Positions 41,800 to 55,975 of a stretch of 63,405 nt of DNA are shown in pieces. The DNA lies in the IMG/VR virus record IMGVR_UViG_3300032893_000043, positions 1 through 63,405 of that record; one strand, given 5' to 3'. Position numbers and translations under genes: made by a program. Below the pieces are notes generated by a model. It worked only from the letters and a program-made list of their open reading frames with translations, ran no database searches and was not told where the DNA came from. Every line of letters starts with the position of its first letter. The stretch's first letter is position 1. This DNA is from a virus.

Positions 41800-41967
41800 A
41801 TGGTTTTCACTTCGATTCGCCAAGCACTCAAAGCCGCCCGCCGCTTTCATCGCGAATACGGTTGCCAAGGCTATCGCTATAAGGCGACGTCGGGCTACTC
41901 ATATCATGCTGGCCGCTTTTGTGTCGCGGTCTATGCTCACAATGGCGCGTTTGTGACGCTGATCTAA
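41800..41967 (+). CDS. Small basic protein
   Basis: This 55-residue protein starts at ATG 41800 with GAGG upstream. It is basic at the start (SIRQALKAARRFHREYG) and Tyr-rich after (CQGYRYKATSGYSYHAG). It is expressed from its own promoter and ends before a terminator hairpin. No family was recognised. Confidence 0.55.
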   Translation: MVFTSIRQALKAARRFHREYGCQGYRYKATSGYSYHAGRFCVAVYAHNGAFVTLI

Positions 41968-42344: not shown

Positions 42345-42703
42345 GCCGCATTTTACCGGCCGCGGCGCTGCGCAGTAGCTTTTGACGGCTACCACTGGGG
42401 GTTCGCAGGCGATTTTTCTCCTCGCTACTTTCAGTCTTACAAGACCGATAGCGAGCTTAGTGCCTTGTATTGCTTAGGCTTTCGGCGACCTGGCGAGCTC
42501 ACGCGGGAACTTTGCATGCGGCGATCGGTCGCAGCTACCGAGAGGTATTTAGACACCCGAAGGCCCGCGCGAAGAACGGAATCGAGGGCACCCCACCCTG
42601 CGCCACCCCAAAAACTTCCAAAAATTTTTTCTGAAAATTGTAGTAGCCGCGACTACGCGAGCCGTGCTACATCGCTTCGACGCACTCAAAAAGGAGACGC
42701 ATC
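42345..42703. other. Regulatory intergenic region with GTAGT operator
   Basis: This 359-base gap between the minus-strand HTH regulator and the plus-strand gene at 42704 contains the GTAGT-N7-ACTAC operator at 42640-42656. A good ribosome-binding site (AAAAAGGAGA) stands before the GTG start. It also holds an isolated plus-strand stretch resembling the end of a tyrosine recombinase (SVAATERYLDTRR), too short and uncertain to annotate. Confidence 0.5.
42640..42656. promoter_or_regulatory. GTAGT-N7-ACTAC operator, site 1
   Basis: GTAGT and ACTAC are a perfect inverted repeat separated by 7 bases (AGCCGCG). It is one of five identical-format sites in the genome. Site 1 lies between the divergent HTH regulator at 41964 and the plus-strand gene at 42704. 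A -35-like hexamer (TAGCCG) overlaps it and a -10-like TACATC follows 18 bases later. Confidence 0.75.
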
Positions 42704-43333
42704 GTGGCCGAGCGCACAATCGAAATTCCCGAAATCAAACTTGATCGCATGACCGTGAACGTCGTTGGTACGTCTCCGCTGCTAACCAATCGCTTCGGCG
42801 AGAACGCGATTGCTTCGATCGAGAACAAACAGCAGAAAAAAGCGAAGGGTGTGAAGGAGGCGCGCGATCCCGAGGCGGAATTTCTTGAGAAGCTGCACGT
42901 CATAAAGGCTGGCAAGACACCGTTGGAAGGTACGTTCGGTTATCCGTCGATCGGTATCAAAAAATGCCTGGTGGTTGCCGGCGGCCGTTTTGCCGACGAA
43001 AAAATGACGCATCTACGCGGCGCCATCAACATTCTTGGAAGCTTGATCGAGATTCGATCGCCGGCTCCGACGATGCGTACCGACACTGTTCGTTTGCAGG
43101 GTGGCGTCACTAGCATCGCCTATCGCCCGCAGTTTTGGCCGTGGGAGATGGAAATACCGGTCGTGTTTAACGCCGGCATTATCGGCCCTGCGCAGATTCT
43201 CAACCTTTTCCAGATTGCTGGATTTGCTGTAGGCTTCGGCGCGTGGCGTCCCGAGCTGAACGGCGTGTTCGGTCAATTTGTTTTGAAGAATTCCGGCGAG
43301 GTCTCGACGAAAGAGAAGACCAAGGCGGGATAA
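42704..43333 (+). CDS. Conserved phage protein of unknown function
   Basis: This 209-residue protein (GTG 42704, AAGGAGA upstream) contains VVGTSPLLTNRFGENAIASI, KKAKGVKEARDPEAEF, a central TDTVRLQGGVTSIAYRPQFW and a C-terminal FQIAGFAVGFGAWRPELNGVFG. The order of these motifs is found in a widespread phage protein encoded near the winged-helix protein. Its biochemical role is not known to me. It is probably controlled by operator site 1. Confidence 0.65.
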   Translation: MAERTIEIPEIKLDRMTVNVVGTSPLLTNRFGENAIASIENKQQKKAKGVKEARDPEAEFLEKLHVIKAGKTPLEGTFGYPSIGIKKCLVVAGGRFADEKMTHLRGAINILGSLIEIRSPAPTMRTDTVRLQGGVTSIAYRPQFWPWEMEIPVVFNAGIIGPAQILNLFQIAGFAVGFGAWRPELNGVFGQFVLKNSGEVSTKEKTKAG

Positions 43334-43791
43334 AAAGCCAAGAGCAGAGTCGATTTGATAGGCGTTGCACAGACCATAAGACCGCAGACGCGATGCAGAA
43401 AAGTACGGCAAACACCAGATGTGCTTTGCAAGGACGTGAGGTCAACTGAAGCGAAAAGTTTATTTTGTTGGTTTGCCAAAAGAGGAGTGCAGCACGGAAT
43501 AGTCAGGACAAGTCCTGCAGCGATGTTAGTTGAAATGAAAAGTTTAATCCATTTGCCATGTGAAAAGAGCAGCCGCGTGAACATGTGACACGACGACACC
43601 AGATGTTACCGGAATAGAAATGAAAAGTTTGTTTGATCCATTTGCCAGAAGAGAACACTCGATGTGCGGCGCTTTGCGTTGAGGCGATAGGAAAACACAA
43701 CAAATGAAAAGTTTCATTTTTGATTTGGCAGAAGAGAACAATAGCTGTGCAGCGTTTTGAGTCGATAGCAGTTGCAAACAAATGAAGTGAA
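43334..43791 (+). repeat. Tandem ~84-base degenerate repeats (leader of the 43792 gene)
   Basis: This 458-base non-coding stretch contains four clear repeat units, about 82-86 bases apart, marked by GAAAAGTTT at 43450, 43536, 43621 and 43704, followed by a TTTGCCA-like box and a GA(A/G)AGA-like box. Upstream of each is a CGATAG or TTAG region and an AAATG. A last, partial unit precedes ATG 43792 (CAAACAAATGAAGTGAAATG). Each unit could begin a micro-peptide starting MKS, but frames differ after three residues, so conservation is at the DNA or RNA level. The function is unknown. Confidence 0.75.
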
Positions 43792-44850
43792 ATGTCTATT
43801 TCTCTCAAAGAGTATTTCGCGCTCGCCGGCTCTAATTTCACAAACGACGATGCTAGGGTCATTGGGCCGGTACTGCAAGAATTGGTGCACGCCGGGCAGT
43901 CGCGACCAAACGAGATTGTCGACGCCGCGCGCTCGACGAATTCCCCGCTGCACGAATATTTCGAGTGGAATGACCAGCGCGCTGGGCAGCTGTATCGCGA
44001 AGGCCAGGCCCGCGACATGGTGCAGGCTATTCGCGTCCGCGTCGTTCCGCGCGAGCAACCCAAAGAACCGCGGCAGTATAAAGTTACGGTTCAGAAGACA
44101 GAGTGGAACACCCTGAGCGACGTCACCGTTCGTAACGAGATCGATGTTCTTGATGGCGCGAGTCTGGCGCTACGCGCGCTTGACGAATGGATACGAGTAT
44201 TCGGTACGCTGGCACAAGCCAAGGAAGTTGCTGATATCTTGCAGCCGATCCTTAATCAGATTTCTGAATTTAAAGAGGAATGTCGCGGCGAGATCCCACC
44301 GAATGACGTGGTTGCGGTTTTTCAAGATTTGCAGCAGATCGAGCAAGCTTGTCAGAAGCTGATCGGGCTACGTGACTATGGCGAGCAGACACAGTATCTG
44401 ATTGAAGCGATCGACGATGCGTGGAAGGCGTATGGGCAGCTGGTTGAAGATAAGAAAGCGCGCTTGACGGTTGTCGAACAGGAGAACGAGGAGCTACGCG
44501 AGAAGATCGATTTTTTGGAGCGCTTGTTTATTGGCGACCAGCTTATGCCTCGGCAATTGCGGCTGACGAAGCAGGAAGGCAAAGTTGTTGGTGCGTTGCT
44601 AAACAACAAGACGGTGAACCGTGAAGCCATCCACTATATTTTGTATTCGGACAAACCGGATGCTGACGAGGCGGACATTAAGATTGTTGACGTTCTGGTT
44701 TGTAAAATTCGTCCGAAGCTAGACCGGTTCGGCATCAAGATCGAAAGCCTTTGGGGCGTAGGTTACCAGATGCCTGATGACTCGCGTAAGCGGCTGCAAG
44801 GTTTGATCGAGGCTGACAAATCGCACCCGCTTGAGGAAGGGATGATCTAA
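43792..44850 (+). CDS. Phage protein fused to OmpR/CtrA-like winged helix
   Basis: This 352-residue protein has three parts. Residues 1-105 resemble a common phage protein (VDAARSTNSPLHEYFEWND, RIRVRVVPREQ-like end). Residues about 130-245 are coiled coil (LQQIEQACQKLIGLRDYG, VEQENEELREKIDFLERLF). Residues about 250-345 form a winged helix with LRLTKQEGKVVGALLNNKTV, IKIVDVLVCKIRPKLDRFG and a final GYQMPDD, close to CtrA/OmpR-type DNA-binding domains. It may act as a phage transcription factor. Its leader carries the tandem repeats. Confidence 0.7.
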   Translation: MSISLKEYFALAGSNFTNDDARVIGPVLQELVHAGQSRPNEIVDAARSTNSPLHEYFEWNDQRAGQLYREGQARDMVQAIRVRVVPREQPKEPRQYKVTVQKTEWNTLSDVTVRNEIDVLDGASLALRALDEWIRVFGTLAQAKEVADILQPILNQISEFKEECRGEIPPNDVVAVFQDLQQIEQACQKLIGLRDYGEQTQYLIEAIDDAWKAYGQLVEDKKARLTVVEQENEELREKIDFLERLFIGDQLMPRQLRLTKQEGKVVGALLNNKTVNREAIHYILYSDKPDADEADIKIVDVLVCKIRPKLDRFGIKIESLWGVGYQMPDDSRKRLQGLIEADKSHPLEEGMI

Positions 44851-44865
44851 AATAATATCTCCCCG

Positions 44866-44882
44866 GTAGTTGCCACCACTAC
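44866..44882. promoter_or_regulatory. GTAGT-N7-ACTAC operator, site 2
   Basis: This is a perfect inverted repeat, GTAGT TGCCACC ACTAC, upstream of the methyltransferase. The 16 bases before it (AATAATATCTCCCCGG) also occur before site 3, showing a duplicated control region. A possible promoter (TTGCCA, 18 bases, TACTCT) overlaps it. Confidence 0.8.
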
Positions 44883-44905
44883 AAACAGTCTGGTACTCTC
44901 GTAAA

Positions 44906-45943
44906 ATGTCGCTGGCTTACTACAACGAGATCGACCCATACTGTGCGCAGTGGCTGCGAAATCTCATCGCAAAAAATCTGATCGCGCCCGGTGTGGTCGA
45001 TGAAAGGTCGATCCTTGATGTCAAACCTTACGAGCTCGAACCCTACACCCAGTGCCACTTCTTCGCCGGTATCGGCGGATGGTCTTACGCATTGCGACTC
45101 GCGGGTGTTGCCGATCATCGAGAAATTTGGACTGGAAGTTGTCCTTGCCAGCCTTTCTCCACGGCAGGCCGCCGCCGCGGGTTTGATGACGAGCGACACT
45201 TGTGGCCATACTGGAGATATCTCATTGCGCAGCGACGTCCTCCAACAATCTTTGGAGAGCAGGTTGCGTCGGCAGCTGACTGGCTCCGACTTGTGCGAAG
45301 TGACCTGGAAGCCCTGGACTACGCCGTGGGGGCAGTCCCTATCGAAGCCGCGAGCGCGGGTGCGGACCACCTTAGAGATCGGTTCTGGTTTATGGCCTAC
45401 CATACGCGCCAACAAGTGGGGGCCGCCGGACAGTCACGGGAACGTAGCGATGTGGCCCACAGCAGCAGCAGCACGCGATTACAGGAGCGAGAGCGCGACG
45501 GAGGAATTCAACGAGAAACACTGGGCGCACAGCCGCGGCAAGACGTTGCCAATGCAGGCGCTGCACGCGACATGGGCGACGCCAACTTCTTTGAGCGGTG
45601 GTTCGGAAACCAGCAATCCGCCTGGCAACAGCCGGAACAACAACGAGATCAGACGCCACGCTTTGTGGGCAACGGCAGCTGCCCAGGAGGCGGGCGGAAC
45701 GGCGGAACAGTTTTTGGAACGCAAGCGCAAGGCAGTGGCGAACGGCTCGACATTGGGCGTCAGTCTGACGAGCCTGAACCTTCAGGCTGGATCATCGGTG
45801 CCGACGGAAAAGCGCGGCGCGTTAAATCCGGAATTCGTTTGCTGGTTGATGGGTTTCCCAATCGCGTGGGTCTCCTGCGGGGTTTCGGTAACGCGATTGA
45901 CCCGCGGCCGGCGGCGCAATTCATCAAAGCCGCGCTCGACTGA
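44906..45943 (+). CDS. DNA cytosine-5 methyltransferase
   Basis: This 345-residue enzyme starts at ATG 44906 (MSLAYYNEIDPYCAQWLRNL). Motifs: I FFAGIGGWSYALRLAG, IV GSCPCQPFSTAG with catalytic Cys, VI FGEQVAS (Gln-Val instead of Asn-Val), VIII RDRFWF, and X GFGNAIDPRPAAQFI near the C-terminus. The region between (Arg/Gln/Gly-rich) would be the target-recognition part. Methylation may shield phage DNA from restriction. A second reading frame overlaps nearly the whole gene. Confidence 0.85.
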   Translation: MSLAYYNEIDPYCAQWLRNLIAKNLIAPGVVDERSILDVKPYELEPYTQCHFFAGIGGWSYALRLAGVADHREIWTGSCPCQPFSTAGRRRGFDDERHLWPYWRYLIAQRRPPTIFGEQVASAADWLRLVRSDLEALDYAVGAVPIEAASAGADHLRDRFWFMAYHTRQQVGAAGQSRERSDVAHSSSSTRLQERERDGGIQRETLGAQPRQDVANAGAARDMGDANFFERWFGNQQSAWQQPEQQRDQTPRFVGNGSCPGGGRNGGTVFGTQAQGSGERLDIGRQSDEPEPSGWIIGADGKARRVKSGIRLLVDGFPNRVGLLRGFGNAIDPRPAAQFIKAALD

Positions 45944-45947
45944 ATAA
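45018..45947 (+). CDS. Overlapping (+1 frame) protein within the methyltransferase gene
   Basis: This 309-residue frame starts at ATG 45018 behind AAAGG, in the +1 frame of the methyltransferase, and overlaps it for 926 bases, ending only four bases beyond it. It has low-complexity Ser/Pro at the start and then LASLSPRQAAAAGLMTSDTC, SDLCEVTWKPWTTPWGQSL, LWPTIRANKWG, and LNPEFVCWLMGFPIAW near the end. Proteins with this motif order occur in other proteobacterial phages, from memory, also overlapping methyltransferases. Such conserved motifs in an overlapping frame make a real dual-coding gene plausible. Expression is unproven. Confidence 0.6.
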   Translation: MSNLTSSNPTPSATSSPVSADGLTHCDSRVLPIIEKFGLEVVLASLSPRQAAAAGLMTSDTCGHTGDISLRSDVLQQSLESRLRRQLTGSDLCEVTWKPWTTPWGQSLSKPRARVRTTLEIGSGLWPTIRANKWGPPDSHGNVAMWPTAAAARDYRSESATEEFNEKHWAHSRGKTLPMQALHATWATPTSLSGGSETSNPPGNSRNNNEIRRHALWATAAAQEAGGTAEQFLERKRKAVANGSTLGVSLTSLNLQAGSSVPTEKRGALNPEFVCWLMGFPIAWVSCGVSVTRLTRGRRRNSSKPRSTE

Positions 45948-45957
45948 TATCTCCCCG

Positions 45958-45974
45958 GTAGTTGCCCCCACTAC
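45958..45974. promoter_or_regulatory. GTAGT-N7-ACTAC operator, site 3
   Basis: This is a perfect inverted repeat, GTAGT TGCCCCC ACTAC, with the same upstream block as site 2. A promoter-like TTGCCC, 18-base spacer and TATAGC overlap and follow it. It precedes the small gene at 45999 and the J-domain gene. Confidence 0.8.
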
Positions 45975-45998
45975 AAGAACCGTGTTATAGCAAAGCGC

Positions 45999-46208
45999 AT
46001 GACCGAATGCCCTCCAGCAGTAGTTAATAAATACCGCTGGTATTCGAAGCGCGCGTCGCCGTATCGTGAAAGCCGTCAAGAAATGAATGCGATGTGGCGC
46101 AAGCTTCGAAAGACCGAGCGCTTCGAGCTACGCCGGCTTCTGTGGCGCCGGTACGTGCTCGCTCAAAGTTTGTTTTATAAGGCGGTAGCAAAAGCGATTT
46201 TGAATTAA
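45999..46208 (+). CDS. Small basic protein
   Basis: This 69-residue protein starts at ATG 45999 after operator site 3. It is very basic and Arg-rich (ASPYRESRQEMNAMWRKLRK, ELRRLLWRRYVLAQ). It ends right before the J-domain gene, so the two are probably co-transcribed. It could bind nucleic acid. Confidence 0.6.
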   Translation: MTECPPAVVNKYRWYSKRASPYRESRQEMNAMWRKLRKTERFELRRLLWRRYVLAQSLFYKAVAKAILN

Positions 46209-46841
46209 ATGTCCCTTTACGAAACTCTCGATCTCACTAGCGACCCGCCGCCCGACGCCGCAGCCATTAAGCGCGCTTACAAGCGCAAGGCCAAAATGAC
46301 CCATCCCGACCGCGGTGGCAAAGTCGAAGATTTCCAGAAAGTCTCGCGCGCTTATCTCGTGCTTAGCGATCCCGTGCGTCGCGCCAAGTACGACGCGACG
46401 GGAGACATCCCCGAGATCACGCCGGAAACGGCCCCGCTGAATTTGCTGGTGCAGTTCTTCGTGACCGTGGTGCAGATGCATTGCGCCGGTCAGGGGCCGG
46501 ATCCGCTGACCACCGATCTGATCAAGCTGGCGCGCGACCAGTTCAAGACCGACATTGCCAACGCCGAGAAGGAGATCGTCAAGATCAAGCGCAGCATCAA
46601 GGTGTGGCAGAAGGTCGAAGCGAAGTTTGGCAAGGCCAAGAAGGGCGCGATGCCGGTGACGATCAAGCGCGCGATGTTGGCGCAAGTGGCGCCGCTCGAA
46701 GCGCATTTGCAGACCATGCAGAGCCAGATCGAGCTGCGCAACGACGCGATGAAGTTGCTTGACGGCTACACGTTCGATTTCGATGCGTCTCCGGCCACGC
46801 CTACGAATTTGTCGGGAAGCTGGATACGCTTCACGAGTTAA
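46209..46841 (+). CDS. J-domain (DnaJ-like) protein
   Basis: This 210-residue protein has a J domain at residues 1-62: YETLDLTSDPPPDAAAIKRA, MTHPDRGG with the essential His-Pro-Asp, FQKVSRAYLVLSDPVRRAKY. The remainder is helical (LLVQFFVTVVQMHCAGQGPD, RSIKVWQKVEAKFGK). No zinc-finger or C-terminal DnaJ domains are present. It likely recruits host Hsp70 to a phage process such as capsid assembly or replication, a known strategy of phages with their own J-domain proteins. It is probably under operator site 3. Confidence 0.75.
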   Translation: MSLYETLDLTSDPPPDAAAIKRAYKRKAKMTHPDRGGKVEDFQKVSRAYLVLSDPVRRAKYDATGDIPEITPETAPLNLLVQFFVTVVQMHCAGQGPDPLTTDLIKLARDQFKTDIANAEKEIVKIKRSIKVWQKVEAKFGKAKKGAMPVTIKRAMLAQVAPLEAHLQTMQSQIELRNDAMKLLDGYTFDFDASPATPTNLSGSWIRFTS

Positions 46842-46865
46842 AAATTCTTCTTGCATCCCCCTTCT

Positions 46866-46882
46866 GTAGTTGCTATGACTAC
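46866..46882. promoter_or_regulatory. GTAGT-N7-ACTAC operator, site 4
   Basis: This is a perfect inverted repeat, GTAGT TGCTATG ACTAC, at the head of the glycan-modification block and upstream of the RHH regulator gene at 47021. TTGCAT lies 17 bases before a TATGAC overlapping its right side. Confidence 0.75.
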
Positions 46883-46959
46883 CAACGCTGATGGCTGGGC
46901 CAGCCCCCGTCCCCTCAACCCCAGGCCCCGCTTTCAGCAGGTTGTGTGTAGCAACCAAG

Positions 46960-46998
46960 CCCGGCTCCTCGCCATCCTCCCTGATCAGGGGAGCCGGG
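46960..46998 (+). promoter_or_regulatory. Leader hairpin before the RHH gene
   Basis: CCCGGCTCC pairs perfectly with GGAGCCGGG over a 21-base loop that contains most of the palindrome CCCTGATCAGGG. It lies in the leader between operator site 4 and the RHH start. It could act as a translational or transcriptional control element, or a weak attenuator. Confidence 0.45.
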
Positions 46999-47020
46999 CC
47001 GTTGCACAAGAGGACTGGAA

Positions 47021-47179
47021 TTGTCTGACGACTATCCGACGTCCGTAAGATTTTCGAAGCAGCTCAAGGCCGACCTGAAAAGGTTTGCCAAGGAGCAAGG
47101 CTGCTCGGTGACGTGGCTCTTGAACCACATCGCCGAGGAATGGGTGGAGCATAAAAAACAAGAGGGTAAGGGCAAATGA
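47021..47179 (+). CDS. Ribbon-helix-helix DNA-binding protein
   Basis: This 52-residue protein starts at TTG 47021, with AAGAGGA at good spacing. The sequence PTSVRFSKQLKADLKRFAKE, then QGCSVTWLLNHIAEEWVEH, has the strand-helix-helix layout of RHH (CopG/Arc-type) regulators, which bind inverted repeats as dimers. It is encoded after operator site 4, so it may regulate this operator family and itself. It overlaps the next gene by ATGA. Confidence 0.75.
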   Translation: MSDDYPTSVRFSKQLKADLKRFAKEQGCSVTWLLNHIAEEWVEHKKQEGKGK

Positions 47180-48231
47180 AAACCGCGCTGGTCACCACCA
47201 CTATCAACGTTCCGACCGTCCTCGCGCTGTATCGCAAGCTCGACCCAAGCGTGAAATTTTTTGTCGCCGCCGACGAGAAGACGCCGCTCGATGCCTACAG
47301 CTTCTGCGCCGACATCCCCGATTGCGAGATGTATTCGCCCGATCGGCAGAAGGAGCTTGGTTACGAGTGCTCCCCGCTGCTTGGTTGGAACAACGACAGT
47401 CGGCGGAACATCGCGCTGCTCGAAGCGCTGAAGTGGGGCGCTGAACTGATCATCTCGATTGATGACGATATGATCCCGATGAACGCGGACTACTTTGCGA
47501 CATTCAAAAAGCTGTTTTTTGGCCGGCGCCAGGATTTCCACGATCCAGGAATTTTTCATAGCTATACGCCAGCTTATTCTGGCCTTCAACTCGGCACGCC
47601 TCTCTACTGGCTTGACGCCGGGCAGCTCACGGTACCGATCGCCAAGCAGCGCGGCCTCCCGCTCGATCACCTCGCCGTCGCGAGTGCCGGCGCCGCGGTC
47701 GGCGTCAATATCGGCATCGCGCAAGGCGTCATTCTCGGCGTGCCGGATACCGACGCCGCGACTGCCGCGACAAGCCAACCGATGGTGCATAGCGCAAGCG
47801 ACATCCTGCGCAACGGGTTCGTGGCGCATCCGCAAGCGCGCGCCGTGGTGAACTCGCAATTCACCGCGTTCCGCCGCGAGCTCGCCCCGGCCTTCGCCCA
47901 GTTTTACGAGCACCAGGGGCGCAACACCGATATCCTCGCCAGTCTTTTGATGCGCCGCATCGCCGCCGAGCGCGGGCTGTTCACCTATTTCGGTCCTCCA
48001 TTTGGATTCCATAATCGCCGGCCGCGGCGGATCCTGCCGGATTTGCGCGCCGAGATGTACGGGCTGGAGCGTATCGAGGCGTGGGCCGACTATCTGGAGC
48101 GCGCACCGCTGTCTTCGGCGGCATCCGTCGCTGTCCAATGTCACTCGTTGATGCGCGGCTTTGCCGGTTTCGACGGCGATCTCAAGGCGTGCGCGGACGC
48201 GTTCTATTCGGATGTGGAGAAGGTGCTGTGA
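47176..48231 (+). CDS. Glycosyltransferase-like protein (GT-A, STELLO/RGP-like)
   Basis: This 351-residue protein has MKTALVTTTINVPTVLALYR at the start and a D-D-D motif in IISIDDDMIPMNADYF at about residue 96, as in STELLO and reversibly glycosylated-type GT-A enzymes that bind nucleotide sugar with metal. The C-terminal part (NTDILASLLMRRIAAERG) is typical of these folds. It is the first enzyme in the glycan cluster. The acceptor is unknown. Confidence 0.65.
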   Translation: MKTALVTTTINVPTVLALYRKLDPSVKFFVAADEKTPLDAYSFCADIPDCEMYSPDRQKELGYECSPLLGWNNDSRRNIALLEALKWGAELIISIDDDMIPMNADYFATFKKLFFGRRQDFHDPGIFHSYTPAYSGLQLGTPLYWLDAGQLTVPIAKQRGLPLDHLAVASAGAAVGVNIGIAQGVILGVPDTDAATAATSQPMVHSASDILRNGFVAHPQARAVVNSQFTAFRRELAPAFAQFYEHQGRNTDILASLLMRRIAAERGLFTYFGPPFGFHNRRPRRILPDLRAEMYGLERIEAWADYLERAPLSSAASVAVQCHSLMRGFAGFDGDLKACADAFYSDVEKVL

Positions 48232-48641
48232 CCTTGTTCAGCATCGACATGGTGGTGCAGACCTGTGTCAATAAGGATTGCGGCATCAGTTTTGCGGTCC
48301 CATCGTGGTGGGACAAAGGGAAACGAGAAACGCGTACAACATTCTATTGCCCGAACGGGCATCCGCAGTCGTATTGCGCTGAGAGCGACCTTGATAAAGC
48401 GCGGCGCGAACGTGACATTGCGCGCCAGCAGGTTGCTCGCGCCGAGCAGGAAGCCGCCGAAGCGCTTGCTCGCGCGCAAAAGGCCGAGCGCGCCGAAAAG
48501 CGTTTGAAGAAGCGAGCTTCGGCCGGCACCTGTCCGTGTTGTCAACGCACATTTTCAAACATGGCGACGCATATGAAGAACCAGCATCCCAATTTTGTTG
48601 CAGAAGGCGGCGCCAAGGTCGTGCCGATCAAGCGCGCATGA
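48228..48641 (+). CDS. Zinc-finger protein
   Basis: This 137-residue protein starts at GTG 48228, overlapping the previous stop. The N-terminus has CVNKDCG and YCPNGHPQSYC, then an acidic/basic coiled coil (RRERDIARQQVARAEQEAAE), and a C-terminal C2H2 finger (CPCCQRTFSNMATHMKNQH). This layout occurs in phage proteins of unknown role. It could regulate or scaffold in the cluster. Confidence 0.6.
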   Translation: MTLFSIDMVVQTCVNKDCGISFAVPSWWDKGKRETRTTFYCPNGHPQSYCAESDLDKARRERDIARQQVARAEQEAAEALARAQKAERAEKRLKKRASAGTCPCCQRTFSNMATHMKNQHPNFVAEGGAKVVPIKRA

Positions 48642-49927
48642 ACCGCGTCGCTATCGCTTTCCTCACTTGTGACCGTGTCGAGCTGACCAAGCGCTCGATC
48701 GAGCCGCTGCTGCAGCCCAACAAGTTCGACTTGCACTGGGTCGATGGCAGTAAGACTGGCGAAGGCATTGATCTGCCGCGCGAGTACAGCCAGCACAAGT
48801 TCTCGACGCATTACGGCGTGGTCGGCGGCTCGGGCGTGGCGATCGTCTACGCCCTGACGACGTTGCTGAAGAAGGGTCTCGGCGAGGGCACCGCCTACGA
48901 TTACATCGGCCTCGTCGAGAACGACGTGCTGCTCGATCCCGACTTCTTCGAGCCGATGATGGCGCTGTTCGAGCAGGGCCGGGCTGAAGGGATGGAAGTC
49001 GGCGCCGTATCCGCGCGGGCTTATGAGGACCGCATCCTGATCCAGCGCGACGGTTATGGCGTCATGCACAATCTCGGCGCCGGCATGATCGTGTTCTCGC
49101 GCAACGCCGCAAAACTGGTGCTGCAGCATTATCGCACCGTGTGGACCACCGAGAACCGGCTGCTGTTCGCCCAGCTGTCGGGAATCGACATCGGCAAGTA
49201 TTGGGCGTTCCGCGGCAACGAGAATTTTTTGGTCGCTGACTGGAATTTTGACCGGGTGTTGGCGTCGTATGGCTATGCTTCGCTGGCACTGACGCCGAAC
49301 AAGGCAACCATGCTCGATCAGGATATTGCCCCGCTCGGTTTGAAATATGCAGACGGCAATTTCGCGCTCGCGAGGAATCCGGAAGCGTTCAATATCTACC
49401 GGCGCAATCTCAAGCGTGTCCAGATCGGTGAGTGGCAGCCGGGGGTTCACGAGCCGTTTTTTCGCGACGATCAGGGCCAGATGATTTTTGCCCATCAGAT
49501 CCCGCAGATTGGCGGCGTGTATAGCGGCAACTGGCGCATCCGCGATTTTCTTCCCTTCGGCCCCTTCGTGTGGAAGGCGGGCGCCGCGGTGCAGGATGAA
49601 GCGTGTTCGACGCAGATGCCTGGTGAGTATCCGACGCTGACGGTGCCCATCTCGGGGCCGTGCTCGTTGATGATCTCCGGCGGCGAGCGGGGCGGCGTGA
49701 TGCGGATCGAGGACGAGCAGTCGGGCTTCGTCGCTGAGCCGGCGCTGCCTGCCGAGTCTGTCAATGGACAACTGATGCAGATCAGCGTGCCGTCCGGCGC
49801 CGGATACCGGGAGATCAAGTTGACGGCGCTGGGCCGGGGCTTATGTTTCTTCGGCGTCAAGACGCGCGATCCGCAGCCGGTGCTGCCGCATGTCCGTTTT
49901 GATTTTGATACGTTACCGCCGCCATGA
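48638..49927 (+). CDS. Glycosyltransferase (GT2-like) with C-terminal beta domain
   Basis: This 429-residue protein (ATG 48638, ATGA overlap) has a GT2-like catalytic domain: MNRVAIAFLTCDRVELTKRS, IGLVENDVLLDPDFFE (in place of DxD), and LGAGMIVFSRNAAKLVL. After residue 320 the sequence changes to a beta-rich part (WQPGVHEPFFRDDQGQMIFA, MRIEDEQSGFVAEPALPAE), possibly a carbohydrate-binding domain. It probably adds a sugar to virion or host polysaccharides. The start and end are coupled to neighbours. Confidence 0.65.
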   Translation: MNRVAIAFLTCDRVELTKRSIEPLLQPNKFDLHWVDGSKTGEGIDLPREYSQHKFSTHYGVVGGSGVAIVYALTTLLKKGLGEGTAYDYIGLVENDVLLDPDFFEPMMALFEQGRAEGMEVGAVSARAYEDRILIQRDGYGVMHNLGAGMIVFSRNAAKLVLQHYRTVWTTENRLLFAQLSGIDIGKYWAFRGNENFLVADWNFDRVLASYGYASLALTPNKATMLDQDIAPLGLKYADGNFALARNPEAFNIYRRNLKRVQIGEWQPGVHEPFFRDDQGQMIFAHQIPQIGGVYSGNWRIRDFLPFGPFVWKAGAAVQDEACSTQMPGEYPTLTVPISGPCSLMISGGERGGVMRIEDEQSGFVAEPALPAESVNGQLMQISVPSGAGYREIKLTALGRGLCFFGVKTRDPQPVLPHVRFDFDTLPPP

Positions 49928-50907
49928 GAGTTTTGATCACAGGCGGGGCTGGCTTCGTAGGTCGAGCATTCACACGCCGATTGGTCGACGACGGTCATCG
50001 CGTGACGGTTGTTGACAACCTCTGTGCCGGGCAGATGCGCGAGAGCTGGTCGTTCAAGCCGAAGTCGCTTTATGCGTTCGAGTTCGCGGTGATGAACATT
50101 CGCGACTATTTCGAGAACCATTCCTGTGACCAGTTCGACTTGATCATCCACTGCGCCGCGATCGTCGGCGGCCGTCTGAAGATCGATGGCGACCCGCTGG
50201 CGGTAGCGACCGATCTCGCGATTGACGCGGATTTTTTCAACTGGTGCGCACGGGGTAAGAAGGAAAAGCAGATCATCTATTTCTCGTCGAGCGCCGTGTA
50301 CCCGCTGGAGCTGCAGACGCGCGACAAGAACATGGATCTCAACGAGCGTCTGGTGTCGTTCGCCGGTACACGCGTCTCTTTACCAGACCAAAGTTACGGT
50401 TGGAGCAAGTTGTCGGGCGAATATCTGGCGAAGATCGCGGTTGAGAAATACAAGCTCGATGTGAAAATTTTTCGCCCGTTCGGCGGCTACGGTCCCGACC
50501 AGGCGTTCGATTATCCGTTCCCGAGCATCATCGCCCGGATTCTGGAGAAGCGCGATCCGGTGGTGGTCTGGGGCTCCGGTGAGCAGGTCCGCGATTTCGT
50601 CTATGTCGACGACGTGATCGAGTGCGTGCTGTCGACCAAGGACAAGCTCAAGCCTGGCGAGGTGTTGAATATCGGCACCGGCCGCGGCGTGTCGTTCCGC
50701 GAGCTCGCCGAGATGGCGTGCAACATCCTGGGGCACAAGGCCGAGATCGTCAGCAATCCGGATCGGCCGGAGGGCGTGTTCCGCCGAGTATCGGACACCT
50801 ACAAGATGCTGCCGCTGTTCAAGCCAAAAACGAAGCTGGAGCAGGGCATTATGAAAGTGGCGCACCACGTCAAAAAGCATCTTGACAGATTTAAGAAGCC
50901 GGTGTAG
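49924..50907 (+). CDS. NAD-dependent sugar-nucleotide epimerase/dehydratase
   Basis: This 327-residue SDR enzyme starts at ATG 49924 (ATGA overlap). The Rossmann motif is ITGGAGFVG at residues 5-13, followed by DNLCAG, a Ser-containing FSSSAVYP, the catalytic YGWSK at about residue 160 and a FRPFGGYGP substrate loop. It resembles GDP-mannose epimerase or fucose synthase-type enzymes. It supplies an activated sugar for the neighbouring glycosyltransferases. The exact substrate cannot be determined by eye. Confidence 0.75.
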   Translation: MRVLITGGAGFVGRAFTRRLVDDGHRVTVVDNLCAGQMRESWSFKPKSLYAFEFAVMNIRDYFENHSCDQFDLIIHCAAIVGGRLKIDGDPLAVATDLAIDADFFNWCARGKKEKQIIYFSSSAVYPLELQTRDKNMDLNERLVSFAGTRVSLPDQSYGWSKLSGEYLAKIAVEKYKLDVKIFRPFGGYGPDQAFDYPFPSIIARILEKRDPVVVWGSGEQVRDFVYVDDVIECVLSTKDKLKPGEVLNIGTGRGVSFRELAEMACNILGHKAEIVSNPDRPEGVFRRVSDTYKMLPLFKPKTKLEQGIMKVAHHVKKHLDRFKKPV

Positions 50908-50910
50908 TTA
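50882..50910 (+). promoter_or_regulatory. Promoter overlapping operator site 5
   Basis: TTGACA at 50883-50888 (inside the epimerase end), a 17-base spacer, then TAGTTA at 50906-50911 form a good sigma70-type promoter for the recombinase gene. The -10 lies inside the left half of operator site 5, so a bound regulator would block it. Confidence 0.55.
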
Positions 50911-50920
50911 CGGTGACTAC
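50904..50920. promoter_or_regulatory. GTAGT-N7-ACTAC operator, site 5
   Basis: This is a perfect inverted repeat, GTAGT TACGGTG ACTAC. It lies directly before GGGAGG and the ATG of the serine recombinase and overlaps the predicted -10 box, so occupation should repress it. Confidence 0.75.
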
Positions 50921-50934
50921 ATCGGGAGGATATC

Positions 50935-51642
50935 ATGATTCTAGCCTATGCACGGGTTTCCACGGTAGAGCAGGCAGCGGACGGCACCACGTCGATTGAG
51001 GAGCAACTGCGCAAGGGCAAGGCTATCGCCGATCTCCGCGGCGCCTCGTCGTTTGATTTCATGACCTTCAAGGACGAGGGCGTGTCGGGTTCGATCCCGC
51101 TCAACGAGCGCCCCGCTGGCAAGGACATGCTGGAGACCGCCAAGAAGGGCGACGTCATCGTGGCCGCCAAGATGGATCGCCTGTTCCGTTCGGCGGCAGA
51201 TGCGCTCAACACCGCGGAAGCGCTCAAGGAGCGCGGCATCAATCTGATTCTGGTCGACATGGGTACGAGCCCGGTAACCGAGAACGGCACCGCAAAAATG
51301 TTTTTCGGCATGCTCGCGTTGGTCGCCGAGTTCGAGCGTGAGCGCATCCATGAGCGCATGCAGGACGGCCGCAAGGGCAAGAAGCTCCGTAACGGTCATA
51401 TCGGCGGCGAGGCGCCCTACGGTTTCAAGGTCGTCGGCAAGAAGCGCGAGTCGCGGTTGGAGCCGGTCGCGGCCGAGCAGGCCGTGGTCAAGGAAGTGCA
51501 GCAGCTTGCCGAGCAAAAAATGTCGTCGTGGAAGATCACCAAACAGCTCAACGCCGCTGGCCGGCGCAACCGGGTCGGTCAGCCGTTCGAGTGCTTCCAG
51601 ATCAAGCGCATTATGGAACGAGCACAGGGAGTAACGCCATGA
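50935..51642 (+). CDS. Small serine recombinase (resolvase type)
   Basis: This 235-residue protein has the resolvase catalytic domain: YARVSTVEQ with the nucleophile Ser at about residue 9, AAKMDRLFRSAADALN and FFGMLALVAEFERERIHERM. It continues with a recombinase-type DNA-binding region (GGEAPYGFKVVGKKRESRLE, KQLNAAGRRNRVGQPFECFQ). At 235 residues it lacks the zinc-ribbon and coiled-coil parts of large serine integrases. It could act as a dimer resolvase, an invertase or a minimal integrase. Its promoter overlaps operator site 5. Confidence 0.75.
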   Translation: MILAYARVSTVEQAADGTTSIEEQLRKGKAIADLRGASSFDFMTFKDEGVSGSIPLNERPAGKDMLETAKKGDVIVAAKMDRLFRSAADALNTAEALKERGINLILVDMGTSPVTENGTAKMFFGMLALVAEFERERIHERMQDGRKGKKLRNGHIGGEAPYGFKVVGKKRESRLEPVAAEQAVVKEVQQLAEQKMSSWKITKQLNAAGRRNRVGQPFECFQIKRIMERAQGVTP

Positions 51643-51800
51643 AGATCCTGACTCAAATCGCCATGCTGACGCTCGTAGCAGTCCTGGTTGTCAGCGGCCG
51701 GCATCCCAAGCATCCGCCGAAGCACGCTGTGATGCTGCATCAGTCGGGATACAGCGGCCCGAGCATTGCCAACCTGCGCGGCGCGTGGACGTTACCCTGA
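51639..51800 (+). CDS. Small secreted or membrane-linked protein
   Basis: This 53-residue protein starts at ATG 51639 (ATGA overlap). It has an N-terminal hydrophobic helix (ILTQIAMLTLVAVLVV) followed by His/Pro-rich SGRHPKHPPKHAVMLHQ. It may be exported or anchored. The function is unknown. Confidence 0.55.
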   Translation: MKILTQIAMLTLVAVLVVSGRHPKHPPKHAVMLHQSGYSGPSIANLRGAWTLP

Positions 51801-51988
51801 TGCAGATCACCGCTGATTTCGACGAGCTCTGCCGGATTGTATGCCCACACTGCGAGAAGGGCATTGCGTACCGTTACCGCACTGACTCGCGCGAGTACGT
51901 CCACGATCAGGTCACCGGCACGAGTCATCTTGTGCATACGATTTGTTGGGCCAACGGCTTGAGGAAAAAGTATCAAGATGGGAAATAG
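51800..51988 (+). CDS. Small zinc-binding protein
   Basis: This 62-residue protein begins at ATG 51800 with a TGATG junction. It contains CRIVCPHCEKG at about residues 11-21 and a later HTICWANG, so a metal site is plausible. It ends overlapping the next gene by 11 bases. Confidence 0.55.
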   Translation: MQITADFDELCRIVCPHCEKGIAYRYRTDSREYVHDQVTGTSHLVHTICWANGLRKKYQDGK

Positions 51989-53351
51989 AAAATTCGCCGT
52001 CGATTTTTTCAACCAAGCAGTCGAGTCGGTCAACGATCACAACAACCCGACGCGGCTCAATCACGCTTATCAGCTTTTCAGCTCCGCATGTCTAACCGAC
52101 CCGACGTGGGGCGAGGCGTGGTACTGGAACGGCAACAACAACAATGATCTCAATCTGCATCCCGCGGCGATTGCGTGCTGGCGCCAGGCGGTCGAGAACC
52201 TGACTGACCCGACTGCCAAAGCCAAGGCAATGTGTAATCTGTCTTGGCGGCTGCACGGTCTCGGCCGGATCGACGAGGCGCATTCGTTTGCGATGAAGTC
52301 GATTGATCTCGACGATTCGCTCGACGCGACGTGGATCAACTTGTCGGTGATCAATACGACGCTCGATCAGACCGACACGGCGCTGTCGTGCGCGCTTCGC
52401 GGCTACAAGCTGGCCCCGGACAACGCGATGAATGAGTTCGCGCTTGGCATGGCCTATATGTTCAATCGTCAGTGGGCCAAGGGGCTGCATCACAACGAGG
52501 CGCGGTTTGCGTACCGGCTGCGCAATTATCTGCAGTATCCGTACCCGAAATGGCAGGGCGAGCCGGACAAGCAGGTCTATGTTGTGTCGGACCAGGGGCT
52601 TGGCGACACGCTGAGTTTTTCGCGGTTTTTGCCAGCAGCGTGCAAGCGCGCCAAGTACGTGCACGCGTCGGTGCAGCCGGAATTGTTCCTGCTGTTCCAG
52701 CGCGCGTTTTTTGACATTCCGAATTTGAATTTGATGCCGACTGGCAACCAGTTTCCGCCGGCCGACTCGTGGACGACGTTTGTCAGTCTGCCGGCGACGC
52801 TCGGCTTGGGCGATGAAGAAATCATCAACGCGCCGCCGATCCGCATTGATCGGTACGACTTCACGGCGAACTGGCGCATCCCCGATCGCAAGCTGCATAT
52901 CGGCATCGCCTGGGCGGGCTCGCCGCTCAACGACATCGACAAGCACCGCAATATCCCGGTGACGCAGTTCCTCGATCTCTACAAGGTGCCGGGCATTCAG
53001 CTTTATTCGCTGCAGAAGTCTGACCGCAACAAGGAGATGTACGACGCTGGCTGCATGTCACTGATCTGGGATCTGACGCCGTACATCGCCAGCGTCGTCG
53101 ACACCATGGCGTTATTGAGCAAGCTCGATCTGGTGATCTGCTGCGAGTCGGCGCTGTTGCACATGTGCAATATGCTCGGCGTCGAGTGCTGGGTGCCCTA
53201 TAGCTACCTCGGCCGCGACTATAGGATGGGGGTCGACGGCAAAAATGTGCTGTGGGGTCCGAAGGTCCGAACGTTCCGGCAGGGGCCGGATATGCGGTGG
53301 GACAAACCGTTTGACGAAATTGTCGAGGCGTTGCGCGAGCGGGTTGCTTGA
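51978..53351 (+). CDS. TPR-GT-B glycosyltransferase-like protein
   Basis: This 457-residue protein has TPR-like helical repeats in residues about 15-180 (HAYQLFSSACLTDPTWGEAW, AIACWRQAVENLTDPTAKAK, LSVINTTLDQTDTALSCALR). A GT-B-type domain follows (VVSDQGLGDTLSFSRFLPAA, IGIAWAGSPLNDIDKHRNIP, DLVICCESALLHMCNMLGV). The layout resembles O-linked sugar transferases and heptosyltransferase-like enzymes with TPR arms. It is a further enzyme of the glycan cluster and could modify virion proteins. Confidence 0.65.
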   Translation: MGNRKFAVDFFNQAVESVNDHNNPTRLNHAYQLFSSACLTDPTWGEAWYWNGNNNNDLNLHPAAIACWRQAVENLTDPTAKAKAMCNLSWRLHGLGRIDEAHSFAMKSIDLDDSLDATWINLSVINTTLDQTDTALSCALRGYKLAPDNAMNEFALGMAYMFNRQWAKGLHHNEARFAYRLRNYLQYPYPKWQGEPDKQVYVVSDQGLGDTLSFSRFLPAACKRAKYVHASVQPELFLLFQRAFFDIPNLNLMPTGNQFPPADSWTTFVSLPATLGLGDEEIINAPPIRIDRYDFTANWRIPDRKLHIGIAWAGSPLNDIDKHRNIPVTQFLDLYKVPGIQLYSLQKSDRNKEMYDAGCMSLIWDLTPYIASVVDTMALLSKLDLVICCESALLHMCNMLGVECWVPYSYLGRDYRMGVDGKNVLWGPKVRTFRQGPDMRWDKPFDEIVEALRERVA

Positions 53352-53370
53352 TGCGCCGTGAGTGGATGAC

Positions 53371-53559
53371 ATGACCAACAACGAAATTGCCGAATCATTG
53401 CTCTTAATGGCAGCGCGACGCTCAGCCGAGACACAATTCGGCTGGTCGCACCCAGACTGTGAAGCCCTGCAAGAGGCCGCCCGCATCTTGCGCGGGGAAC
53501 CGATACCTGAAATCGAGATGCCGGAAGTCGTTTTGTCTGATCCGTTAACGCGGCGATAG
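53371..53559 (+). CDS. Small acidic protein
   Basis: This 62-residue protein (ATG 53371) is helical at the start (MTNNEIAESLLLMAARRSAE) and acidic and Pro-rich at the end (IPEIEMPEVVLSDPL). It lies between enzymes of the glycan cluster. It has no recognisable motif. Confidence 0.5.
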   Translation: MTNNEIAESLLLMAARRSAETQFGWSHPDCEALQEAARILRGEPIPEIEMPEVVLSDPLTRR

Positions 53560-53566
53560 GAAGATA

Positions 53567-54379
53567 ATGAGCGGCGCAATCAAACTCGACTTCAAGCTCG
53601 CTGGCAAGCACGTCGGGTTCTCGATGTGGACTGACACTACGTGCGTCGCCGATCAGGCGATGCTGTTCGCACTGCGTCATGGCGGTTGCGTCGAGCCAGA
53701 AGTTTCGCACCTTTTGGCGCGCACCTTGCGGCCGGGCGATTATGCGATCGACGGCGGCGCCAATGTCGGGTTTTTTACCATCCTGATGTCGAAGCTTGTG
53801 GGGCCGGACGGTTTCGTGCTGGCGTTCGAGCCGGGACCGAACAATCTCTACAAGCTCAAGGAAAACATCAATCTGAACAAATGCAAGAACATCGAGATCG
53901 TCGCTAAGCCGTTGTCGGATAAGCACGAGACGCTGCAATTTTTCTTGTGCCAAGACGGCAGCAAGAACTCGCTGGCTCCGCATCTCGACACGCGCGGCAA
54001 CACTCTTTTGGAGGCTGCGGTTCTTGACGACTATGCGACCGAGGACATCTGCCGGAAGCTGCGGCTTATCAAGCTCGATATCGAGGGCGCTGAGCTCCTG
54101 GCGATGCAGGGCGGGATGCAGTTGCTGGGCGAGGAAGGCTGTCCTTATATCGTCATGGAACTGAACAACGAGGCGCTGCCGAAGTTCAAGGCCAGCTTCG
54201 AGAGCGTGCGGGACTTCATGCGCGAGCAGGGCTATGACATGTTTTTGCTCCACGAGAGCGGCGTGTTGCCGACCTACGTGCCGCGGCATACGAAGGTGCT
54301 TCCGAATCGATTGAACTGGAACGTGTTGTTTTCCACACTCGACATGGTTGGCGCGGCTTGGCCGGAGACGGAATTATGA
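53567..54379 (+). CDS. FkbM-family methyltransferase
   Basis: This 270-residue protein has DGGANVGFFTILMSKLVG at about residues 62-79 (SAM-binding motif I), FEPGPNNLYKLKENINLN, and KLDIEGAELLAMQGG at about 167-181. These are the diagnostic motifs of FkbM-type methyltransferases, many of which O-methylate sugars or surface polysaccharides. With the glycosyltransferases and epimerase it completes a glycan-decoration pathway. It overlaps the following gene by ATGA. Confidence 0.8.
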   Translation: MSGAIKLDFKLAGKHVGFSMWTDTTCVADQAMLFALRHGGCVEPEVSHLLARTLRPGDYAIDGGANVGFFTILMSKLVGPDGFVLAFEPGPNNLYKLKENINLNKCKNIEIVAKPLSDKHETLQFFLCQDGSKNSLAPHLDTRGNTLLEAAVLDDYATEDICRKLRLIKLDIEGAELLAMQGGMQLLGEEGCPYIVMELNNEALPKFKASFESVRDFMREQGYDMFLLHESGVLPTYVPRHTKVLPNRLNWNVLFSTLDMVGAAWPETEL

Positions 54380-54777
54380 GCATCACTGACGACGAACGAA
54401 CAGTTCTGATGATCGCCGACCGCGGCGAGTACATGCTGGCGATCGGGCGTTGGGAATTACCGATCAAAAGCCTTGCAAAGCGCGGGTTGCTGGCGAGCCA
54501 GATCCTCAACGGCGGGCCTCAGTACACAATCACCGAGGCTGGGCGCACCGAGCTCAACGCTGCCGAGCACGAGGAAGACCAGCAGTTAAGAGAAATCATT
54601 AACCGGTCCTCGGCGACGCTGGCGAGCATTCGCGGCAAGGCCGAGCAGTCGGCACAACTGCTGGCGCAGGCGGCGAAGGAATCAGAGCAGGCGACCGGCG
54701 ACTCGCCCAAGGTCGCGGCCGAGCGCTGGTCGGAAATGATCTTGAAGCGTGCGCTGGATATCATCGCCAATGGATGA
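54376..54777 (+). CDS. Small winged-helix-like protein with coiled-coil tail
   Basis: This 133-residue protein (ATG 54376, ATGA overlap) has an N-terminal segment suggestive of a winged helix (LPIKSLAKRGLLASQILN, GGPQYTITEAGRTEL) followed by a helical, Gln/Ala-rich tail (SATLASIRGKAEQSAQLLAQ). Its role is unknown. The next gene begins inside its last codons. Confidence 0.55.
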   Translation: MSITDDERTVLMIADRGEYMLAIGRWELPIKSLAKRGLLASQILNGGPQYTITEAGRTELNAAEHEEDQQLREIINRSSATLASIRGKAEQSAQLLAQAAKESEQATGDSPKVAAERWSEMILKRALDIIANG

Positions 54778-55111
54778 AGACGCCCAGTTCTTCACGCAGC
54801 ACCCCGACCGCTACGCGCATATCCGCGAGCCGAGAATGGTGCTGACGAAGACGCCGCAGCGGGCGGTGCATTACCGACCCGAGATGGAAGGCGAGTTCTG
54901 GAGCCTCGGCGAGCACAACAAAGACCGTCGACGAATTCTGTTGTGGCGCGTGCCGGAGCATCATCCGGCGTATGATCCGAAATCGGTCAAGATCTTGCGT
55001 ATTCCGTTCTTGCTATTTTCTGACGAAAATATCGAGGACACGGATGCCAATCTTTTGCCGTTGATCCACCAGATCATGACGGACGCGGCGAGGAAGCAGG
55101 GAGTGCGATGA
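54770..55111 (+). CDS. Hypothetical protein
   Basis: This 113-residue protein starts at ATG 54770, overlapping the previous gene by 8 bases. It is soluble, with aromatic and charged residues (FFTQHPDRYAHIREPRMVLT, RRRILLWRVPEHHPAYDP). The C-terminal helix LLPLIHQIMTDAARKQG is typical of small accessory proteins. No family was recognised. Confidence 0.6.
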   Translation: MDEDAQFFTQHPDRYAHIREPRMVLTKTPQRAVHYRPEMEGEFWSLGEHNKDRRRILLWRVPEHHPAYDPKSVKILRIPFLLFSDENIEDTDANLLPLIHQIMTDAARKQGVR

Positions 55112-55308
55112 AAAAATTTGTTCAGCCTGATCCAGCGACCGGCTATCGAATTACTTCGTACCGCCTAGAAGGCTCAGGTCCATGGCCGTTTACGGAGACC
55201 GGTTATATTTATCACAAGATTGATCTCTCTGACTTGGAGGAGCCGTATTTGTCGGCGGTTAAGGAATCGCTGGCCAAGGACCTAACACCAAAAGAGCAAA
55301 AAGAATGA
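55108..55308 (+). CDS. Small hypothetical protein
   Basis: This 66-residue protein begins with an ATGA overlap. It carries Tyr-rich segments (GYRITSYRLEGSGPWPFTET) and an acidic helix at the end (LSAVKESLAKDLTPKEQKE). It belongs to the chain of coupled small genes before the terminase. Confidence 0.55.
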   Translation: MKKFVQPDPATGYRITSYRLEGSGPWPFTETGYIYHKIDLSDLEEPYLSAVKESLAKDLTPKEQKE

Positions 55309-55520
55309 GCTGGTCTCGCTCGGTTTTCAGTTCTAACGTGTCTGAGGTCGGTTACGACAGCGAAACGCAGGAGCTGCTTATCACATGGCTCAAGAGCGGC
55401 AAGACCAGCGCTTATGCAGGGGTGCCCGAGGATGTTGCTGAAGCTTGCTCGCGGGCGCCAAGCGTTGGGCAGTTCGTGAACGCGGAAGTGAAACCTTTTT
55501 ATTCGCATCGTTATAGGTAA
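55305..55520 (+). CDS. KTSC-domain protein
   Basis: This 71-residue protein is a clean KTSC domain: SSNVSEVGYDSETQELLI, then TSAYAGVPEDVAEACSRAPS and FVNAEVKPFYSHRY. This small beta domain is common in phages and bacteria, with no settled function. It is coupled to its neighbour by ATGA. Confidence 0.75.
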   Translation: MSWSRSVFSSNVSEVGYDSETQELLITWLKSGKTSAYAGVPEDVAEACSRAPSVGQFVNAEVKPFYSHRYR

Positions 55521-55523
55521 CGC

Positions 55524-55688
55524 ATGACAGAAGATGAGGCTTATGAAAGAGCAGTGGCAGCGTTGTCTCGTCCAAGAGTGACAACTCGGATGCACTTAAG
55601 CGGACCTATGTCGGAACCGCGGCGTCTCACCGTTGAAGACCTTGTCAAAATACTTAAAGATTTAGGTTTGTTGGAAATTCCAAAATGA
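55524..55688 (+). CDS. 54-residue small protein
   Basis: A frame from ATG 55524 to TGA 55688 encodes MTEDEAYERAVAALSRPRVT and PRRLTVEDLVKILKDLGLLE. The helical C-terminus and the ATGA junction with the next gene support it as coding. No family was recognised. Confidence 0.55.
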   Translation: MTEDEAYERAVAALSRPRVTTRMHLSGPMSEPRRLTVEDLVKILKDLGLLEIPK

Positions 55689-55948
55689 ACGACGAAACCC
55701 AACCGCCGAGCAATGCCGATCGTTTCCGCAAGATGGCCGAGCGCATCGACCACAACGTAGATGCTGGTTTCGGCGGTGCCTGCGTCATTATCCCGCCGAC
55801 CGGCTCCGGCGACCCGATCGAGGTGCTGCTGCTCGACAACGCCGCAGATCCGGCAACCTTCTATTCGACGGTCTCGACCCGGCTGCAGTTGGCTTTGGAC
55901 AAGATCGCCGAGACGAAGGCGCAGCAAATGGGGTTTGGAAGACGTTGA
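55685..55948 (+). CDS. Small hypothetical protein before terminase
   Basis: This 87-residue protein (ATGA start at 55685) contains FRKMAERIDHNVDAGFGGAC and a C-terminal helix (ALDKIAETKAQQMGFGRR). The terminase starts 32 bases after it. It may be the small terminase partner by position, but no HTH or terminase motif is visible, so this is only possible. Confidence 0.5.
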   Translation: MNDETQPPSNADRFRKMAERIDHNVDAGFGGACVIIPPTGSGDPIEVLLLDNAADPATFYSTVSTRLQLALDKIAETKAQQMGFGRR

Positions 55949-55958
55949 ATTTGCTGAC

Positions 55959-55975
55959 GTAGTCGCGTAAACTTG
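55959..55975. promoter_or_regulatory. Degenerate GTAGT-N7-ACTTG site before terminase
   Basis: GTAGT CGCGTAA ACTTG keeps the left half and three of five bases of the right half of the operator family, and it lies just before the terminase start, where the packaging operon begins. It is weaker than the five perfect sites and might be a diverged or lower-affinity copy. Confidence 0.4.

Follow-up and report, generated by a model that had tools for sequence, protein, structure and literature searches.

The uncultivated virus record IMGVR_UViG_3300032893_000043, analysed over its full length of 63,405 bp (the window), carries five exact copies of a 17-base palindrome, GTAGT-N7-ACTAC, at positions 42640, 44866, 45958, 46866 and 50904. 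These palindromes are probably operators of the phage's own ribbon-helix-helix (RHH) protein, encoded at 47021–47179, which would repress the promoters in which they lie; both binding and repression are deduced from covariation between operators and RHH proteins among related phages.

All five sites, which had been reported in a preliminary description of this DNA, were recovered at their coordinates. Not one of 100 dinucleotide shuffles of the window contained an exact copy, and the expectation from base composition was about 0.04. In an unbiased scan of repeated palindromes with 5- and 6-base half-sites and gaps of 0–15, GTAGT-N7 ranked top in the window. Copies with a single mismatch were absent from the window, and when up to two mismatches were allowed, the 10 matches obtained corresponded to chance level (7.2 ± 2.6 expected). 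One of these two-mismatch matches is the supposed degenerate sixth site before the terminase (55959), which was rejected both on this score and because twelve relatives showed no conservation of this position upstream of their terminase.

The exact sites are all intergenic or located on a stop codon and end 14–138 bp before the downstream gene, in agreement with the earlier claim that each is proximal to a gene or operon. A background scan for equally good sites inside genes found none. The sites are confined to 8.3 kb (42.6–50.9 kb), so the word "phage-wide" used previously does not apply to this genome, although a few relatives do carry extra sites elsewhere. The replication and structural genes of this phage are without a GTAGT-N7-ACTAC site, and the other putative targets in this genome, besides the RHH gene, are accessory genes.

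Relatives were collected in two ways. A search with the portal-like protein (59408–61129) gave 79 loci, and exact sites were present in 10 of the 50 contigs searched whole, with up to four per contig. The alignment of the sugar-transfer-like gene at 47176, used as query, gave 39 loci, with exact sites in 16 of the 27 contigs searched and up to five per contig. IMG/VR contigs are possibly incomplete. A search with protein 43792 returned no relatives. When viral contigs were scanned openly at the DNA level for GTAGTTGCCNNNACTAC, the matches listed were mostly single background ones, but the L306 and L309 contigs were independently caught among them. In twelve site-bearing contigs (572 kb), spacing 7 accounted for 27 copies, while no other spacing between 0 and 21 had more than two; as these contigs had been picked for N7 sites, only the contrast between spacings is informative. 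No enrichment was seen at other spacings, the exceptions being single N8 sites in L303, L370 and L367.

In related phages the exact palindrome was found at the same genes, namely the recombinase, the RHH/glycan operon (about 20 relatives with palindromes before RHH genes), the methyltransferase (also in G005 and L319) and the J-domain gene (homologues in L306, L309 and L310). The exception was gene 42704: no site lies upstream of its homologues in four other phages (L005–L008), so this slot is not conserved. The core of the preliminary description, namely that several promoters share a repeated operator for a phage regulator, thus withstood both the background scan and the comparison with relatives. 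The operator slots of relatives hold Acb2/Tad1-like, 3'-5' exoribonuclease-like, PAPS-reductase-like, methyltransferase and small unknown genes. The RHH promoter in G019 appears to drive an Acb2-like gene as well. This gene, at 5672–5890 of L231 (oriented G019) between an operator and the RHH gene, is Acb2/Tad1-hairpin-like, with a PF24729 match (E = 1e-4) below the cut-off.

A promoter is proposed at each operator, all on the plus strand. Operator 1, GTAGTAGCCGCGACTAC (42640–42656), ends 47 bp upstream of gene 42704; its putative −35 box, TAGCCG (42644–42649), lies inside the palindrome, an A/T tract lies upstream, and TGC with the −10 box TACATC (42668–42673) follows downstream. Operator 2, GTAGTTGCCACCACTAC (44866–44882), ends 23 bp before the ATG of the C5 methyltransferase gene (44906), with TTGCCA (44870–44875) and TACTCT (44894–44899) as proposed −35 and −10 boxes. 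At operator 3, GTAGTTGCCCCCACTAC (45958–45974), which precedes gene 45999 by 24 bp and then the J-domain gene, the corresponding boxes would be TTGCCC (45962–45967) and TATAGC (45986–45991). Operator 4, GTAGTTGCTATGACTAC (46866–46882), belongs to the proposed promoter of the RHH/glycan operon and ends 138 bp before the RHH gene; here TTGCAT (46851–46856) and, after a 17-bp spacer, TATGAC (46874–46879, inside the palindrome) would serve. Operator 5, GTAGTTACGGTGACTAC (50904–50920), overlaps the epimerase stop codon, with 14 bp left between its end and the recombinase ATG; the proposed recombinase promoter consists of TTGACA (50882–50887), a 17-bp spacer and TAGTTA (50905–50910, inside the palindrome).

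These arrangements recur in the relatives. TTGAC was found no more than 32 bp upstream in 39 of 56 distinct sites, against 1.5 expected. At recombinase promoters it usually starts 22 bp before the palindrome, a distance found at 13 sites, which places the −10 box (TAGTNN) in the left half. At RHH promoters the distance is mostly 8–19 bp, with the −10 box inside or just after the palindrome. A third class, with an A/T tract upstream, the −35 box (TTGCC) inside the palindrome and TGnTAC or TGnTAT after it, takes in sites 1–3 of the window and sites in G005, G019, G025, L306 and L308–L310; the layout of operator 1 recurs in these same contigs. The block shared by sites 2 and 3, previously described as 16 bases long, is present but comprises 15 bases (AATAATATCTCCCCG, 44851–44865 and 45943–45957). 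It lies directly upstream of both operators, and the identity continues from it through the operator, so that the two sites have the appearance of a promoter duplication. In several recombinase-type sites, the distance from the palindrome to the first start codon is 12–16 bp regardless of which gene follows, as though the promoter, the operator and the ribosome site behaved like one cassette. A structured leader with a GC-rich inverted repeat (46883–47020) separates operator 4 from the RHH gene; it has no Rfam match, nor did an Rfam search of the whole 40.5–51.7 kb region return one. Some relatives' leaders at RHH genes end in terminator-like hairpins.

Since the palindrome covers differing parts of the promoters (−35 box, spacer or −10 box), steric repression is the simplest mode of action, and a steric repressor fits the variable position better than an activator does. 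Use of the sites by the RHH protein to activate transcription or to block elongation, in the manner of stoperators, is improbable by comparison with repression of initiation. There are precedents for both, as the RHH protein AmrZ activates as well as represses (PMC3325190) and the repressors of Cluster A phages stop elongation at dispersed sites (PMC9283540). An activator would nevertheless be expected at a fixed position, unlike the shifting overlaps seen here, and the location of the sites in promoters and not within genes argues against an elongation block.

The proposed repressor is a protein of 52 amino acids with the strand PTSVRF and the start codon TTG. It matched RHH_5 in Pfam (23.9 bits, under the cut-off of 26) and the Arc-like repressors of PHROG 582 (E = 3.5e-5). 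The predicted model contains helices at residues 12–25 and 29–49, with a predicted local distance difference test (pLDDT) value of 92. The best matches in the PDB by sequence and fold included CopASO (nearest), CopG, the MazE/VapB antitoxins and Arc, the entries for Arc, CopG and CopASO being 1par, 1ea4 and 6iya, with weak fold-search E-values, as expected at 51 residues. On the two helices covered by this model and the profile matches to CopASO, CopG and Arc structures, the protein falls within the RHH (Arc/CopG/MetJ) superfamily. As in Arc/CopG-type regulation, an inverted-repeat operator overlaps the promoter of the protein's own gene, at operator 4 and at its counterparts in about 20 phages. 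The protein differs from type II RHH antitoxins, as it has no tail beyond the RHH domain and the next genes are sugar-related.

The presence of sites follows the RHH strand. Sites occurred in 23 of 24 phages with the strand PT[S/T]xR versus 2 of 17 others (Fisher 3e-8). L303, the single PT[S/T]xR phage that deviates, carries GTAGT-N8-ACTAC upstream of the RHH gene, and the two site-bearing contigs without this strand (L320 and L334) have one site each, beyond the 6-kb stretch around the sugar gene. Nine later loci (L362–L370) contained neither GTAGT-N7-ACTAC (0/9) nor a PT[S/T]xR strand; eight of them have a different RHH strand or lack a detected RHH gene, L367 is truncated at the sugar gene, and L366 hardly differs from L369. 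RHH genes of about 50 amino acids can escape a profile search. L318, for instance, was first scored as RHH-less until a better profile found one, which leaves the association table unchanged, since its strand is not PT[S/T]xR.

The letters of the operator also appear to change with the strand. Where the strand is P[V/I]x[I/L]R, all five phages show N7 palindromes with GTAGC on at least one side, versus 2 of 41 others (p 1.5e-5). These palindromes occur in L315 (three), L318 (four), L325, L330 and L338, with the variant operator GTAGC-N7-GCTAC seen at the corresponding promoters of L315, L318, L330 and L338, and TTGAC or a near form lies upstream of the L318 sites and of two of the three L315 sites. 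For this test the phage groups were compared, as a control with the motif read backward gives no fair background for GTAGC sites, given how often CATCG/CGATG occurs in coding DNA. In L329/G018, where the RHH strand is PTSIDV, CTAGT-N7-ACTAG stands at the corresponding promoter before the RHH gene.

Several observations weigh against this interpretation. The covariation rests on few lineages: the sugar-gene tree leaves one supported independent pair, and the association was not significant after tree correction, in a test without power. For this reason, the covariation of operator letters with the RHH strand is suggestive, not proven. Two phages with the RHH strand, L307 and L313, lack an exact site upstream of the RHH gene itself, and the RHH_5 score is below threshold. 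In addition, none of the five proposed promoters reached the threshold of a generic sigma-70 promoter scan, and the promoter reading therefore rests on conservation.

A second candidate binder named in the preliminary description, the helix-turn-helix (HTH)-like protein encoded divergently from operator 1 (41964–42395, minus strand, no family match), fits worse than the RHH protein and is unlikely to be the regulator that binds the palindromes. Its gene, which most relatives have conserved, adjoins operator 1 in the window and in G005 and G025. However, it is also found in phages without sites (L318, L325, L329, L330, L338, L362, L363, L366, L368–L370, G027, G040 and G048) and in L320, whose one site lies outside the stretch around the sugar gene; the L364 fragment gave no HTH match. 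Its predicted recognition helix is highly variable, in contrast to the constant operator, and the association of the HTH gene with sites (p 0.009) is weaker than that of the RHH strand. Among HTH-positive phages only, the RHH type still predicted sites (19/20 vs 1/6, p 5e-4). Operator 1 belongs to the opposite promoter, 245 bp from the HTH start, and upstream of the HTH gene itself lies a different conserved near-palindrome, CAGTCTTACAAGACCG (42432–42447). Variants of CAGTCTTACAAGACCG are conserved in G001, G005, G012, G025 and G039 and are perhaps the HTH protein's own operator. Gene 43792 (OmpR-type winged helix, 352 aa) was also tried as regulator and rejected, being present in the site-free contigs G002–G004 and G043 and missing from most site-bearing contigs.

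There is little to recommend a host regulator whose regulon the phages adopted: the promoters look host-like, with TTGAC boxes, but the presence and letters of the sites track the phage RHH type. Least credible is the proposal that the serine recombinase (50935) uses the palindromes as crossover or accessory sites. The recombinase does occur in most site-bearing phages, with a site at its own gene, yet it is present in G018, G024, G029 and G043, where the RHH protein is different or missing and promoter sites are absent, no recombinase homologue was detected in G037 despite its N7 palindrome before the RHH gene, and the sites all lie in promoters and have no constant core between the half-sites.

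With the RHH protein as repressor, two dimers would bind each palindrome, one per GTAGT half-site, with the half-sites 12 bp apart. Host RNA polymerase would read the operator-bearing promoters, and bound RHH protein on the −35 box, spacer or −10 box would block initiation. Because the RHH gene heads one of its own target operons, negative autoregulation would follow if the protein is a repressor. By analogy with Arc and Aca repressors, the promoters may fire early after infection; the RHH protein would then accumulate and shut down the glycan operon, the recombinase, the methyltransferase, the J-domain gene and gene 42704 together.

A more far-reaching proposal is put forward only tentatively. 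The sites may constitute a plug-in regulon under one RHH autorepressor, in which cassettes of promoter, operator and ribosome site take up changing accessory or counter-defence genes (Acb2-like, methyltransferase, J-domain, exoribonuclease, PAPS-reductase-like and small unknown), and in which coevolution of operator letters and RHH strand could have produced the specificity groups GTAGT, GTAGC and CTAGT within a large uncultured phage group.

Known systems share parts of this arrangement. Arc of phage P22, CopG and CopASO share the small RHH fold; of these, P22 Arc and CopG repress transcription from inverted half-sites, and CopASO represses its own operon at GTANTAC-N3-GTANTAC repeats (PMC8706911). 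The present case differs from them in the GTAGT half-site with N7, the several promoters per protein and strand residues unlike those of Arc, and no toxin partner was found in the RHH operon. The operators of phage P1 C1 are dispersed at many promoters, with 22 sites (PMC8546580), but are asymmetric (ATTGCTCTAATAAATTT), in contrast to the palindrome and RHH protein found here. SPBRE of SPbeta, a repeated element in intergenic promoter regions, was found in silico years before the protein MrpR (PMC10516654); MrpR differs in its tyrosine-recombinase fold and 15-bp motif, and it maintains lysogeny. Stoperators of Cluster A mycobacteriophages are dispersed sites whose letters vary between phages along with the repressor (PMC6550527); they are 13-bp, asymmetric, present in up to about 30 copies per genome in one orientation, and stop elongation (PMC6550527, PMC9283540). 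The sites described here are palindromic, all at promoters and number five in 63 kb, which sets them apart from stoperators. Aca repressors of anti-CRISPR operons are likewise small autorepressors that silence an accessory operon of a phage. All ten families known so far consist of HTH proteins (PMC9410906), unlike the RHH protein with several separate promoters considered here. No description of the GTAGT-N7-ACTAC site or of an RHH-run dispersed phage regulon was found in the open-access library searched.

The proposed target genes lie on the plus strand. Operator 1 precedes a PHROG 4652 protein (42704–43333). Between this gene and gene 43792, at 43448–43797, there are four to five copies of a unit of about 84 bp (GAAATGAAAAGTTT...ATTTGCC...AAGAG), and L005 and L006 have a similar repeat between the counterparts of the same gene pair. 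The C5 DNA methyltransferase (44906–45943; PF00145, PHROG 363) contains a second open frame of 318 aa at 44991–45947, which matches PHROG 1008 (E = 3e-23). In G005, G012 and G019 both frames are conserved at the protein level (44–49% and 35–37% identity) and overlap in the same way, and the arrangement is roughly kept in G027, suggesting dual coding at this locus. Operator 3 is followed by a small unknown protein (45999–46208) and the J-domain protein (46209–46841; PF00226, E = 2.7e-14). Behind the RHH gene, the operon continues with the sugar-transfer-like protein as its second gene (47176–48231, no Pfam match). A second conserved gene of the glycan cluster (48638–49927, no Pfam match) and the NAD-dependent epimerase (49924–50907; PF01370, E = 3.9e-38), the last gene of the cluster, lie before the serine recombinase (50935–51642; PF00239, E = 8.7e-31).

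Three further observations were made outside these genes. TTGAAAGAGTA occurs three times in the window (40812, 41222 and 41752), each time shortly upstream of a small gene, and is a possible second promoter or operator family. The terminase-like gene (55980–58898) encodes 972 aa and appears to be interrupted by an intein-like stretch (CLALDTKLPTPTGWTT...MVPTHN). In the whole G026 contig, CCCGCC-N3-GGCGGG is present 19 times and its N4 form 14 times, a highly repeated hairpin family that possibly represents terminators.

For a phage group without a cultured member, the analysis thus defines a regulon together with the protein that probably regulates it. The dispersed operator systems known from phages rely on other protein folds, and an RHH-run network of several promoters would be an addition to them. 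Since a few strand residues appear to have coevolved with the operator letters across entire regulons, natural variants make RHH recognition directly testable. The operator provides a sequence tag for accessory genes that would be expressed together and, if the plug-in organization holds true, it would also be a tag for finding new counter-defence genes.

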